A DNA stretch of 46,069 bases from an uncultured Deinococcota bacterium (GTDB taxonomy: Bacteria; Deinococcota; Deinococci; Deinococcales; Trueperaceae), in the NCBI GenBank assembly GCA_947311535.1, contig CAMZLP010000057.1:1-46069 (forward strand), read 5' to 3'. Position numbers and translations under genes: made by a program. Under the pieces are notes generated by a model that saw nothing but the letters and a program-made list of their open reading frames with translations, was not told the DNA's origin and did not search any database. Of the stretch, positions 8,314-11,899 are shown piece by piece (positions within the stretch are counted from its first letter, which is position 1; every line of letters starts with the position of its first letter).

Positions 8314-9705
8314 TTAAGCTCGGTTTAAGCTCTTTTGCCATTCTTGAGCTTCTTCATTTGATTCTTTGACGTGGTATCTAGCAGCTTTAGGTAGACGAGA
8401 TTTTAGTGATAAAGAATATTGAGAAAAGTGCTCTAAGGCAGTACTAACCGGCTGGCGCAAAAAGAATTCGGCAGCAGCTATTCTTTGAACAATTTGAAAT
8501 GGGCTATGCTCGAGCAAATCCAAAACTTTAAGAATTTCATCACGGCTATAGTCTTCTAGCTGAATATCATCTAAGAAAAATACCGTAAAAGGCTTCATAG
8601 TAGCTAAGCTCTCTAAGACTGCTGAGAACCTACCTCTGGAGCTAATAATATTATGGATTTTTGCCTCAAGGTTTTCAGCGCCTCTTTCAAATAAACCCTC
8701 AGTAGCAAAATGCGGTTCTAAATCAATGGGGCTAATTGCAACTGATTTACTATAATCTACTAGTCTCTGAAATGCTTTCCAAGACCACAAACTTATTCTG
8801 CTAGAATTTGCAGGCGCAGACAAACGTAGCAAATCACGATGATTTGCAAATATAGCTACATAGTCTAAACCTAGGCTCCTACGTTGGTTCATAATCCCAG
8901 CCCAATCGAGGCTCTGGCCCTGTTCTAAAAAATGTACTAAAACAGCATATTTCCTTCTTCCCAAATTAATCTTAAGGCTCATTTTATCAGGGCCTAATAC
9001 CGTTAAGCGGTAACCCATCAGGCGAAAAAAATCTTTCACATTATTATAAGAATGATTATCTGTTTTTACCAAAGGCCTATTGGGCAGATTCTCACTAGCT
9101 TTCAGTTCAATTTGTTTGCTTTGCTCGCTTGCTTGAATTTGCTTTTGTGACTGAATTTGCTCTTTTGACTGATTGCTTCTAATAACTTTTACATTAAAAC
9201 CATCATATTCGTTTATATCTTCTTCCACTTTTAATATTTGCCAACGACCACTTTGATAAATAAAGCGCCCATCAATCAATAGTTTTTTGTGAAGCTTGTC
9301 TGTTTCAGCAATTTTATAAAACTGGCATATTTCAGCTTCTGAACGAGCTTGCCCAGAAAGATACAATTTATCTAAGACCTTATCTAAATCAAGAGTTTTA
9401 TAGTTTGACCTAGGCGATCTGGTACATTTTTCTACTCTTAAGCTATAGCTGCCATCATCATCTAATAAAATAATAATGTAATCATTAACTATTAGGCTAT
9501 TAGCCTCCATAAAGCTTTTAAAACCAAATACTCTTCGCTTATCAATTATTTGGATATTATATTCTTTTGATGAATGGGTATCAATCGCTTTCACTTCTCC
9601 CTCTGCAGGGAAAAGGCCTTTCATACTTGCAGGTAAAATAAGTAGACCACTTTTAAGACAAGTACTACTTAGGCGATATTTATACTCACTTCCTATTTTA
9701 ATCAT
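8314..9705 (-). CDS. Unrecognised two-part protein (conserved-looking, possible DNA-related)
   Basis: 463 residues if translation begins at ATG 9705, where GGAG lies 6 nt upstream; a GTG at 9717 is the longer alternative. I do not recognise the family. The first 90 residues are beta-rich. Residues about 95-165 look like a small helical (possibly winged-helix) domain. Residues 170-210 are a low-complexity Gln/Lys/Ser linker. The C-terminal 250 residues form a globular domain with LGRRKYAVLVHFLEQG, GLDYVAIFANHRDLLRL, SPIDLEPHFATEGLFERG and RGRFSAVLESLA. No signal peptide or membrane segment, so cytoplasmic. Divergent from the M3 peptidase gene, with two inverted repeats in the shared upstream region. 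Confidence 0.75.
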   Translation of the reverse strand: MIKIGSEYKYRLSSTCLKSGLLILPASMKGLFPAEGEVKAIDTHSSKEYNIQIIDKRRVFGFKSFMEANSLIVNDYIIILLDDDGSYSLRVEKCTRSPRSNYKTLDLDKVLDKLYLSGQARSEAEICQFYKIAETDKLHKKLLIDGRFIYQSGRWQILKVEEDINEYDGFNVKVIRSNQSKEQIQSQKQIQASEQSKQIELKASENLPNRPLVKTDNHSYNNVKDFFRLMGYRLTVLGPDKMSLKINLGRRKYAVLVHFLEQGQSLDWAGIMNQRRSLGLDYVAIFANHRDLLRLSAPANSSRISLWSWKAFQRLVDYSKSVAISPIDLEPHFATEGLFERGAENLEAKIHNIISSRGRFSAVLESLATMKPFTVFFLDDIQLEDYSRDEILKVLDLLEHSPFQIVQRIAAAEFFLRQPVSTALEHFSQYSLSLKSRLPKAARYHVKESNEEAQEWQKSLNRA

Positions 9706-9791
9706 TCCCAACTCCACACCCCAGTGAATTAACAGAATTCAAAATTCATCTAAAAAACAAAGCTTAGAATTATGAAATACTAATGTCATAT

Positions 9792-9816
9792 AGTTTGAAA
9801 CTTAGCAATTCAAACT
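9792..9816. promoter_or_regulatory. Inverted repeat, candidate operator
   Basis: AGTTTGAA (9792-9799) and TTCAAACT (9809-9816) are perfect 8-bp inverted arms separated by 9 nt. The repeat lies between the divergent unknown gene (start 9705) and the M3 peptidase gene (start 9872). No T-run follows, so it does not look like a terminator. Confidence 0.45.
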
Positions 9817-9818
9817 CC

Positions 9819-9835
9819 GTTAAACTTAGTTTAAC
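9819..9835. promoter_or_regulatory. Second inverted repeat, candidate operator
   Basis: GTTAAAC, spacer TTA, GTTTAAC: perfect 7-bp arms with a 3-nt spacer, 3 bp downstream of the first repeat. The shape (7-3-7) matches the repeat at 30321-30337 between the epimerase and dienoyl-CoA reductase genes, but the sequence differs. Confidence 0.45.
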
Positions 9836-9871
9836 TTATAAAAGCACTTGCTTGCAAAGGAAAAAGATTTA

Positions 9872-11899
9872 ATGAACCCAATATTAAGCCAAGAATTCAA
9901 AATACCATTTGCAAAAATTACTGCAGATGACATAGAAACCGCCATTCCTGAGATTTTGGATAGCACAAATCTAAAAATTAAAGAGATTGTCAAAAACCCT
10001 GAAATAGCCAGCTATCAAAATACAATTGTAGCTTTGGAGGATAGGCTCGAGCCTATCGACCGAGCTGTAACTATTGTTTATCACCTCAAAAGTGTAAAAA
10101 ATACCGCCTCTATCAGAGAAGCGTTTAATTCGGTTTTAGAGAGCATTTCAAAATTTTATGCAGAATTAGCCCTCAACCAAGAATTGTGGCAAAGGCTAAA
10201 AGAATTTGCTGATAGCCCAGCCGCTCAGGATTTAAAAGGCATAGAAAAAAGACATTTTGAGAAAACTATTAAGAGCTTTGTGCGTAATGGTGCAGATTTA
10301 GACGATCAGGCTCGAGCCAAAATTAAAGCAATTAAGATAGAATTAAGTGAACTCCAAAATAAGTTCTCAGAAAATGTATTAGACTCGAGCAATCAATTTG
10401 AATTAATCCTAACAAGCCCCGAAGAATTATCAGGCTTGCCTCAGTCCGTTTTACAAATGGCAAAAGAAGACGCAGAAAACAAACAAATCTCAGGTTATAG
10501 GTTTAGTTTACAAGCTCCTTATATAGTGCCATTCTTGAAATATTCAAATAACAGAGCCTTACGCAAAAAAATGCACAACGCCTACGAAAACAGAGCAAGC
10601 TCTGGCAAACATGATAATGAAAATCTAATAGATAGGATTTTGCTTCTACGGCAAGAATTAGCCCTTATTTTAGGTTACAAAAACTTTAGCGAGTATCAAC
10701 TTGAAGAGCGTATGCTCAATTCTACTAAAAAAGTAAAAGACTTCCAAGCAGAAGTCTATCAAAAAACCCTCCCTTTTTGGCAAAAAGAACTTGATATCCT
10801 CAAAACTTTTAGCAAAGAGGAACTCCATATAAAAGATTTAAAACCTTGGGATATCTCTTACGCCATAGAAAAACTTAAACTATCTCAATTCTCTTTTGAT
10901 GATGAAGAGTTACGCCCTTATTTTTCTTTAAAAAATGCTCTGGCAGGTCTTTTTGAAATTGTTAACAGATTGTTTGCAATCACAATCAAAGAAGAAGAAA
11001 ATGAAGAGAAATGGCATGAAGATGTACGTTATTACAATATTTTTGCAGAAGATGGCAGTTTTTTGGGAGCTTTTTATACCGACCTGTTCCCAAGAGAAGA
11101 AAAACGCAGTGGAGCTTGGATGAATTCATTTATTACAGGTGGCCCCAAAGAAAATGCCAGCTTTAGCCCTCACTTGGGCTTAATAGTTGCAAATTTTAAT
11201 AAAGCACAAAAAGATACCCCATCATTACTTAGTCACCGTGAATTAGAAACCCTATTCCATGAATTTGGTCATTTGCTCCACCACATGCTTTCTAATGTAG
11301 AAATAAAGTCTTTATCTGGAACTAATGTAGCTTGGGATTTTGTAGAATTACCCTCACAACTTATGGAAAATTGGACTTATGAAAAACAAGCTCTCGACCT
11401 TTTTGCCAAGCATTATAAAACCTCTGAAGCTTTACCTGATGATTTATTGAACAAACTGCTATCGCAAAAACAATTTATGCAAGCTCATTACCAAATGCGC
11501 CAATTGAGCTTTGGAGATATTGATTTAGCACTGCACAGTAATTATTCAAAAGAGGCTGATGGCACAGTAGTGAGTTTTTCAAGTAATATTATGGAAAACT
11601 ATGCTATCAAGCCTGAATTTGCCCATAGTAACTTCATCAAAGCCTTTTCTCATATCTTTTCAGGCGGCTACGCTTCTGGCTATTATAGCTACAAATGGTC
11701 TGAAGTTTTAGAAGCAGATGCATTTACTCGCTTTAAAAATGAAGGAGTATTTAATTCTGAAACTGGTAAGGAATTTAAGGAAAAAATACTATCAAAAGGA
11801 AATAGCGAAGAAGCAAATAAGCTATTTGAAGACTTTATGAATCGCAAACCAAGTATTCAATCTTTATTAGATAGAAATTTAGGAGCCCTAAGCTCTTAA
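9872..11899 (+). CDS. prlC: Oligopeptidase A-like M3 metallopeptidase
   Basis: Cytoplasmic zinc oligopeptidase (M3A; oligopeptidase A/PrlC type) that degrades peptides left by ATP-dependent proteases and signal peptidases. 675 residues from ATG 9872, supported by AAAGGA about 10 nt upstream; an upstream TTG at 9848 would add eight residues. The N-terminus (NPILSQEFKIPFAKITADDIETAIPEIL) is family-typical in layout. The zinc motif HEFGH is at 463-467, with the further conserved LSGTNVAWDFVELPSQLMENW stretch after it (Glu ligand) and the C-terminal GGYASGYYSYKWSEV substrate-binding loop. Full length. It contains an 18-bp palindrome at 10040-10057 encoding DRLEPI and another GCTCGAGC at 10310. 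Confidence 0.95.
   Translation: MNPILSQEFKIPFAKITADDIETAIPEILDSTNLKIKEIVKNPEIASYQNTIVALEDRLEPIDRAVTIVYHLKSVKNTASIREAFNSVLESISKFYAELALNQELWQRLKEFADSPAAQDLKGIEKRHFEKTIKSFVRNGADLDDQARAKIKAIKIELSELQNKFSENVLDSSNQFELILTSPEELSGLPQSVLQMAKEDAENKQISGYRFSLQAPYIVPFLKYSNNRALRKKMHNAYENRASSGKHDNENLIDRILLLRQELALILGYKNFSEYQLEERMLNSTKKVKDFQAEVYQKTLPFWQKELDILKTFSKEELHIKDLKPWDISYAIEKLKLSQFSFDDEELRPYFSLKNALAGLFEIVNRLFAITIKEEENEEKWHEDVRYYNIFAEDGSFLGAFYTDLFPREEKRSGAWMNSFITGGPKENASFSPHLGLIVANFNKAQKDTPSLLSHRELETLFHEFGHLLHHMLSNVEIKSLSGTNVAWDFVELPSQLMENWTYEKQALDLFAKHYKTSEALPDDLLNKLLSQKQFMQAHYQMRQLSFGDIDLALHSNYSKEADGTVVSFSSNIMENYAIKPEFAHSNFIKAFSHIFSGGYASGYYSYKWSEVLEADAFTRFKNEGVFNSETGKEFKEKILSKGNSEEANKLFEDFMNRKPSIQSLLDRNLGALSS
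10040..10057. repeat. 18-bp perfect palindrome centred on GCTCGAGC
   Basis: GATAGGCTCGAGCCTATC, inside the M3 peptidase gene, read as Asp-Arg-Leu-Glu-Pro-Ile. The same hexapeptide from nearly the same bases occurs in the 26-bp palindrome of the ABC-F gene (26868-26893). Confidence 0.9.

Follow-up and report, generated by a model that had tools for sequence, protein, structure and literature searches.

A probable core DNA-binding protein of the Deinococcota resembling a restriction enzyme stripped of its cutting site

The locus and its annotation

The gene discussed here, which we call Q, lies in the window, a stretch of 46,069 nucleotides (37% GC) from a 2.7-Mb, 191-contig assembly of an uncultured Deinococcota bacterium. 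Its coding sequence occupies positions 8314 to 9705 of the minus strand, from an ATG at 9705 to a stop ending at 8314, and encodes the 463 residues that a preliminary description of this DNA had claimed; an alternative start, the GTG at 9717, gives 467. The three motifs quoted in that description are all found in the translation. Divergent from Q, as had been noted, is an oligopeptidase gene, here confirmed as encoding an M3 family enzyme (9872 to 11899, plus strand; Pfam Peptidase_M3, E = 3.2e-135) with a likely ATG at 9872. The spacer between the two genes holds two previously described repeats: an inverted repeat, AGTTTGAA-N9-TTCAAACT, at 9792 to 9816, and a palindrome, GTTAAACTTAGTTTAAC, at 9819 to 9835. 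The latter had been written as GTTAAAC-TTA-GTTTAAC; its arms are in fact 8 bp long and flank a single central base.

The protein had been called impossible to place, and library searches bear this out, with no significant match in Pfam, NCBIfam, PADLOC, or PHROGs. Against Pfam, the B3 family (PF02362) appeared only below threshold (E = 0.065; 13.6 bits versus a cutoff of 30.1), together with a weak match to DUF7482 (E = 0.073); NCBIfam returned nothing, PADLOC had no family matched by window Q or by five relatives, and PHROGs gave one weak match to a family of unknown role (E = 0.18). Pfam B3 reached an E value of ≤1 in 4 of 21 members (best, 0.038) and exceeded its cutoff in 0 of 61 genomes. 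On the strength of the models described below, we file the Q N terminus as a predicted structural relative of B3 that stands outside Pfam B3 membership. Searches of PDB sequences produced no match for the full-length family alignment and two chance-level matches for window Q alone (E = 0.55 and 1.3). The N-terminal alignment did return Tako8 in a PDB profile search (E = 2.8e-8), but no single stretch passed alone and Tako8 is a designed repeat protein; the match was therefore treated as a repeat artifact and rejected. No paper describing the Q protein was among those listed by literature searches. What can be offered at this point is an architecture for a protein that all four libraries miss.

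Predicted architecture

A scan of contigs with two narrow peptide patterns found 23 loci, all assigned to Trueperaceae, Truepera, Deinococcales, Deinococci, or Deinococcota and none to Thermus or Meiothermus; these relatives are metagenome-assembled Trueperaceae and other Deinococcota. Twenty-one of these loci entered the fold alignments (L088 and L092 were left out). The alignment used for residue counts has 21 rows from five families, the Trueperaceae and those designated f2 to f5; our guess, based on genome sizes, GC, and synteny, is that f2 is Deinococcaceae, f3 Marinithermaceae, and f4 Thermaceae. AlphaFold2 models were made for two query proteins, window Q and a Trueperaceae relative at locus L077, with the same 22 sequences. 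Both models have the same order of parts: a B3 fold, a probable winged helix, a disordered linker, a PD-(D/E)XK-like fold, and a winged helix. The earlier picture of a two-domain protein was too simple, given that the models contain four folded units and a linker. The window model has a mean pLDDT of 75.4, with no more than moderate confidence in its B3 part (56 to 82 in blocks from 11 to 100), and the L077 model is the more confident of the two (block-mean pLDDT of 79 to 92 over residues 1 to 90).

The B3 DNA-binding fold spans residues about 4 to 96 (9418 to 9696, minus strand) and is assigned from the AlphaFold2 models, VIA comparison, and the subthreshold Pfam match. Its elements in the L077 model are strands at 4 to 8, 18 to 20, 33 to 39, 45 to 50, 55 to 57, 73 to 78, and 84 to 89 and helices at 11 to 16 and 60 to 65, which are the seven strands and two short helices of a B3 pseudobarrel. 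Apart from the DNA readers of bacterial restriction enzymes, B3 domains are known chiefly from plant transcription factors. The best scores are to plant proteins: FUS3 (Z = 13.6; 1.7 Å over 91 residues) and VAL1 (12.8; 2.1 Å over 91) for the L077 model and VAL1 (10.3; 1.8 Å over 86 residues) for the window model. Across FUS3, VAL1, ARF, LEC2, NGA1, and TEM1, the fold is the same, with Z scores of 10.9 to 13.6 (1.7 to 2.2 Å, 88 to 92 residues) for L077 and 8.2 to 10.3 for the window; however, identity is 15 to 22%, and, unlike the plant proteins, Q is a bacterial core gene product in which B3 is joined to a nuclease-like fold and the arm residues vary. The B3 domains of bacterial restriction enzymes share the fold as well and also match the L077 model (LlaJI.R1, Z = 11.2, 2.5 Å, 93 residues; BfiI, 8.7, 2.5 Å, 92; NgoAVII R protein, 7.7, 2.6 Å, 89; UbaLAI, 7.6, 2.7 Å, 90). 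The Q domain model is closer in score to the transcription factor domains than to the restriction enzyme domains, although Z scores alone show no ancestry.

For ABI3 (PMC8398556), sequence-specific DNA binding is described as running through the N-arm and C-arm of B3. In Q, most rows of the Trueperaceae, f2, and f5 have R at arm position 14, but those of f3 and f4, like window Q, have S; an arm that varies across the phylum in this way is a poor fit with one conserved target site.

The second unit (residues about 105 to 157; 9235 to 9393, minus strand) is a probable winged helix, read mainly from the order of its helices and strands (three and two, respectively, in each model). It is present in the Trueperaceae rows and missing from all eight f2 to f5 rows of the 21-row alignment. 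Pfam WHD_MCM8 matched somewhere along the protein in 2 of 21 members (lowest E value, 0.00074). The linker that follows (residues 161 to 214; 9064 to 9225, minus strand) is predicted to be disordered (pLDDT < 50). A motif, V(T/S)PYP(K/R)xx(L/M/I)(F/Y)P, occurs there in 10 of the 21 aligned proteins, window Q being one of those that lack it. The form VTPYP(K/R)xVLFP is kept across families amid this disorder, for example, in L034, L047, and L055, and may be a partner-binding motif.

The third unit (residues about 209 to 354; 8644 to 9081, minus strand) is assigned by VIA and alignment to the PD-(D/E)XK restriction endonuclease-like fold. The window model runs helix 217 to 229, strands 233 to 236, 241 to 247, and 252 to 259, helix 268 to 278, and strand 282 to 287, the alpha-beta-beta-beta-alpha-beta order of that core. 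It matches Nt.BspD6I (Z = 10.3; 4.7 Å over 142 residues), HindIII (8.7; 3.1 Å over 133), and AF1548 (8.0; 3.2 Å over 101), and the L077 core scores higher against each (11.4, 3.9 Å over 137 residues; 9.8, 2.7 Å over 130; and 9.4, respectively). FokI scores 10.1 to 10.5 but at 18.7 to 18.8 Å, because several domains were aligned at once. The C-terminal winged helix (residues about 357 to 417; 8455 to 8637, minus strand) was identified by VIA and has Z scores of 6.9 to 8.0 to many winged helices in the window model; in the L077 model, it matches the winged-helix domain of DpnI (Z = 9.0; 1.8 Å over 58 residues). DpnI, which cuts methylated DNA, likewise consists of a PD-(D/E)XK domain followed by a C-terminal winged helix. 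Neither EcoRII nor the nuclease part of DpnI was among the fold matches listed, and the absence of EcoRII carries no meaning. In total, the fold assignment is well supported, and the function proposed below is inferred.

A nuclease-like core that has probably lost its activity

Can such a protein cut DNA? The catalytic residues of PD-(D/E)XK enzymes follow the pattern D ... (D/E)xK. Residue counts over the core were made on the 21-row alignment, which spans five families, and strand 3 carries (D/E)xK in 0 of 21 rows, which sets Q apart from FokI, Nt.BspD6I, and HindIII and, in the missing catalytic motif, from DpnI as well. Outside strand 3, only 3 of 21 rows have a string of this kind between columns 238 and 268, at scattered positions, and no acidic residue at the start of strand 2 is common to the rows. 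Because the (D/E)xK pair is missing from strand 3 throughout, the core is probably nuclease dead. Its other conserved features are basic, namely, an LGR(R) turn (R250 in 20 of 21 rows; R at 251 in 16) and an RRR helix (position 275 is R or K in 19 of 21 rows, and position 276 is R in 17 of 21), and the dead core may still hold DNA.

Could Q instead cut DNA through an atypical active site, as a restriction-like or structure-specific enzyme? The fold is matched to active enzymes, and two positions are often acidic: 247 (12 of 21 rows) and 267, where the next helix begins (D in 17 rows and E in 2, together 19 of 21). However, position 267 is off the expected site of the catalytic motif, the counts for strands 2 and 3 speak against activity, and no DNA methyltransferase was recognized among the neighbors examined, a subset of the genes across the loci; the single methyltransferase seen near Q, at L038, is of the UbiE type. 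We consider an active enzyme improbable.

In the studies cited here, the B3 domains of bacteria serve restriction enzymes as DNA readers (PMC4081073, PMC4267653), and the BfiI reader domain resembles plant B3 factors (PMC4081073). NgoAVII and BfiI are described there as recognizing their site through B3 domains acting as monomers while the nuclease domains dimerize and cut (PMC4267653). Like Q, both combine a B3 reader with a nuclease-type fold within one protein, but their nuclease, according to the same studies, is of the phospholipase D type (PMC4081073, PMC4267653) rather than the PD-(D/E)XK fold of Q. Unlike the B3 restriction enzymes, Q has no cutting motif and no recognized methyltransferase nearby, and it is a chromosomal core gene and not part of a defense cassette. 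A restriction system was considered and rejected: no methyltransferase or motor subunit was recognized among the neighbors examined, no PADLOC family matched, and plasmid and phage records gave no match. The suggestion that Q is a regulator or a nuclease-like factor therefore survives in part: the C-terminal half has a restriction enzyme-like fold (Nt.BspD6I, HindIII, and FokI) and the N terminus is B3, but the missing motif in strand 3 leaves the nuclease reading unsupported.

Distribution across the phylum

A profile search with the C-terminal half of Q found it in 100 of 111 Deinococcota genomes, in 82 of the 85 good ones (completeness of ≥90% and contamination of ≤5%), and in 31 of 31 genera. 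This count supersedes one made with the full-length alignment (103 of 111 genomes; 84 of 85 good ones) and was made because G018, G024, and G028 matched only in the B3 part. These three (G018 and G024 good, G028 fair; Trueperaceae genus g7) have B3-type matches only, like the B3-only paralog described below. Good genomes without the C-terminal half are G018, G024, and G021, and with 11 of 111 genomes lacking it, Q is not strictly universal.

A maximum-likelihood tree was built from 38 rows after loci that lacked the N-terminal motif or had fewer than 340 amino acids (L061, L069, and L070) were dropped. The 18 Trueperaceae rows fall into a single supported group, and f2, f4, and f5 make up one group each; f3, to which L050 belongs, and f4 are united in a group whose internal branching is resolved in part. 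The branch of window Q is long (1.42). There was no match in 72,556 plasmid records, queried with two relatives, or in 50,697 phage records, queried with window Q. The patchy, mobile distribution typical of restriction-modification is thus not what is found, considering the presence in 82 of 85 good genomes, a tree that follows families, and the empty plasmid and phage searches.

The possibility that Q is a decayed restriction-modification remnant with no present role has to be weighed at this point. The architecture recalls B3-plus-nuclease restriction enzymes, the catalytic residues are lost, and the window branch is long. In contrast, a gene present in nearly all good genomes, with conserved motifs, would hardly have been kept so long in five families without a role, and we regard the remnant as very unlikely indeed. 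Since its fold is B3 plus restriction enzyme-like and nearly every well-sequenced genome searched carries it, Q is probably a core DNA-binding factor.

A paralogous family occurs at nine Trueperaceae loci (L112, L113, and L117 to L123, two of them cut by contig ends; e.g., L119:2609-3529 and L112:1646-2938). Its members combine the B3 part with a long low-complexity linker and lack the nuclease-like core, and their C-terminal segment, read by eye, looks winged-helix-like. Pfam found nothing in the two members searched. At L120, an RNase_T-type exonuclease (E = 7.6e-16) adjoins the paralog.

The repeats in the spacer

Based on the two repeats, it had been proposed that Q acts on the sites between the divergent genes. 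How unusual are they? Among 5,000 dinucleotide shuffles of the 166-bp intergenic region, 10.4% held one or more inverted repeats (arms of ≥8 and spacer of ≤20), and 0.34% held two disjoint ones; of 554 overlapping 166-bp slices of the window, 1 held two. The pair is mildly beyond chance, and one repeat alone is not unusual. Neither pattern is enriched in the genome: AGTTTGAA-N9-TTCAAACT matched at 52 places when as many as 3 mismatches were allowed (reversed control, 47), and GTTAAACTTAGTTTAAC matched at 13 when as many as 2 were allowed (control, 43), with only one perfect copy of each among the genome matches listed.

The pairing of Q with an M3 peptidase gene recurs only in L052 and L054 among 40 loci, that is, in two genomes of one genus, and the spacers there contain no inverted repeat with arms of at least 7. 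The repeats are thus not conserved with the gene pair, and an action of Q on them is not supported. A local transcription factor that binds 9792 to 9835 and thereby regulates both its own gene and that of the oligopeptidase would suit the two disjoint repeats and the B3 and winged-helix folds, which are common among regulators, but the lack of enrichment, the repeat-free L052 and L054 spacers, the rarity of the gene pair, and the failure to find a sigma-70-like promoter in 9600 to 9960 all count against it, and it seems to us slightly less probable even than an active nuclease. The repeats may be operators for some other factor or may be due to chance; on all observations made, nothing links them to Q. 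The L052 and L054 spacers have a block in common, GTGTGAAGTTTGTTACACTT, which differs from the window repeats and could be a conserved promoter or operator.

Gene neighborhoods

In f3, f4, and f5, the gene just before Q, on the same strand, encodes a DEDDh 3'-5' exonuclease (Pfam RNase_T) and is itself preceded by an amidase gene; exonuclease and Q frames mostly touch or overlap in the loci read. A high-scoring ortholog is present in 20 of 61 genomes searched, namely, in every f3 to f5 genome among them, and always (20 of 20) directly before Q on the same strand; weaker, unlinked matches occur in four other genomes. Residues D85, E87, D169, H224, and D229 are invariant in 14 rows, and with all five DEDDh residues kept, the exonuclease is probably active. 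Its N-terminal segment ends in an invariant DGRF motif (e.g., L047:4870-5610). A transfer of the Trueperaceae Q winged helix onto the exonuclease N terminus in the other families was considered but not adopted, with an hhalign probability of 24.6% (E = 0.0008).

The other families have other neighbors. In f2, Q is divergent from cdaA, the c-di-AMP cyclase gene, at 3 of 3 loci (L038, L042, and L048). Of 20 Trueperaceae loci compared, two end at Q and are untestable for RNase R; in 13 of the remaining 18, RNase R precedes Q by no more than about 0.7 kb and shares its strand, and carB faces Q in 19 of 20, the contig of the last ending just after Q (the identities of RNase R and carB were Pfam checked on L060 only). 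With cdaA in f2 and RNase R and carB in the Trueperaceae, no partner is universal.

The tight linkage in three families suggests a role of Q around the 3' ends of DNA. Does this make Q an accessory factor that recruits or restrains 3'-5' exonucleases (DEDDh in f3 to f5 and RNase R in the Trueperaceae) at nucleic acid 3' ends, with sequence reading secondary? The unbroken DEDDh linkage, the frequent RNase R upstream of Trueperaceae Q, and the RNase_T-type exonuclease beside the paralog in L120 are consistent with such a role. However, f2 has cdaA as the neighbor in place of an exonuclease at all three loci, window Q adjoins the M3 peptidase, RNase R is mostly 0.1 to 0.6 kb away and may be only codirectional, and carB is the more constant Trueperaceae neighbor. 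We see the accessory factor as the strongest of the competing explanations but still unlikely.

A working model

In total, the observations outlined above are best explained if Q is a vertically inherited, core DNA-binding protein of the Deinococcota, resembling a restriction enzyme in build but no longer able to cut, a reading to which we assign a probability of just under 0.6; most likely, it is a nuclease-dead, DNA-binding scaffold or chromosome regulator. We posit that the B3 domain would read a specific double-stranded DNA site and that the flexible linker would join it to the presumably dead PD-(D/E)XK core and winged helix, which, by analogy with the B3 restriction enzymes, would grip DNA through the conserved basic LGRR and RRR motifs or hold a Q dimer together. 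Q would then act at chromosomal sites as a scaffold or regulator that leaves the DNA uncut, and in the three exonuclease-linked families, it might position or control the processing of DNA 3' ends, with the exonuclease as its putative partner. More tentatively, and with a good deal less confidence, we speculate that the Deinococcota hold a core, nonrestriction lineage of B3 proteins, including the B3-linker-winged-helix paralog of the Trueperaceae, that serves as a chromosome-wide reader of DNA sites, possibly in DNA maintenance with 3'-5' exonucleases.

If this reading is true, Q would be a free-living bacterial counterpart of the B3 regulators of plants and, at the same time, a restriction enzyme that lost its nuclease function and took on a housekeeping one. 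A nuclease-dead B3 protein in nearly all of the Deinococcus-Thermus phylum would represent a new housekeeping use of the B3 fold, bears on the origin of plant B3 domains, and is a testable candidate for chromosome maintenance in the Deinococcota.

The f2 arrangement deserves a further remark. The Deinococcus radiodurans CdaA homolog DR0007 is placed in a predicted operon with DR0008, a CdaR homolog, and DR0009, and deletion of DR0007 or DR0008 lowers survival of gamma rays (PMC4401554). The f2 Q/cdaA locus is the kind of c-di-AMP locus that this study implicates in radiation survival in D. radiodurans. If the f2 gene order holds there, DR0006, on the other side of DR0007, would be the Q ortholog; a literature search for DR0006 with Deinococcus found no paper. 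At L048, one of the f2 loci, a YbbR-domain gene follows cdaA.
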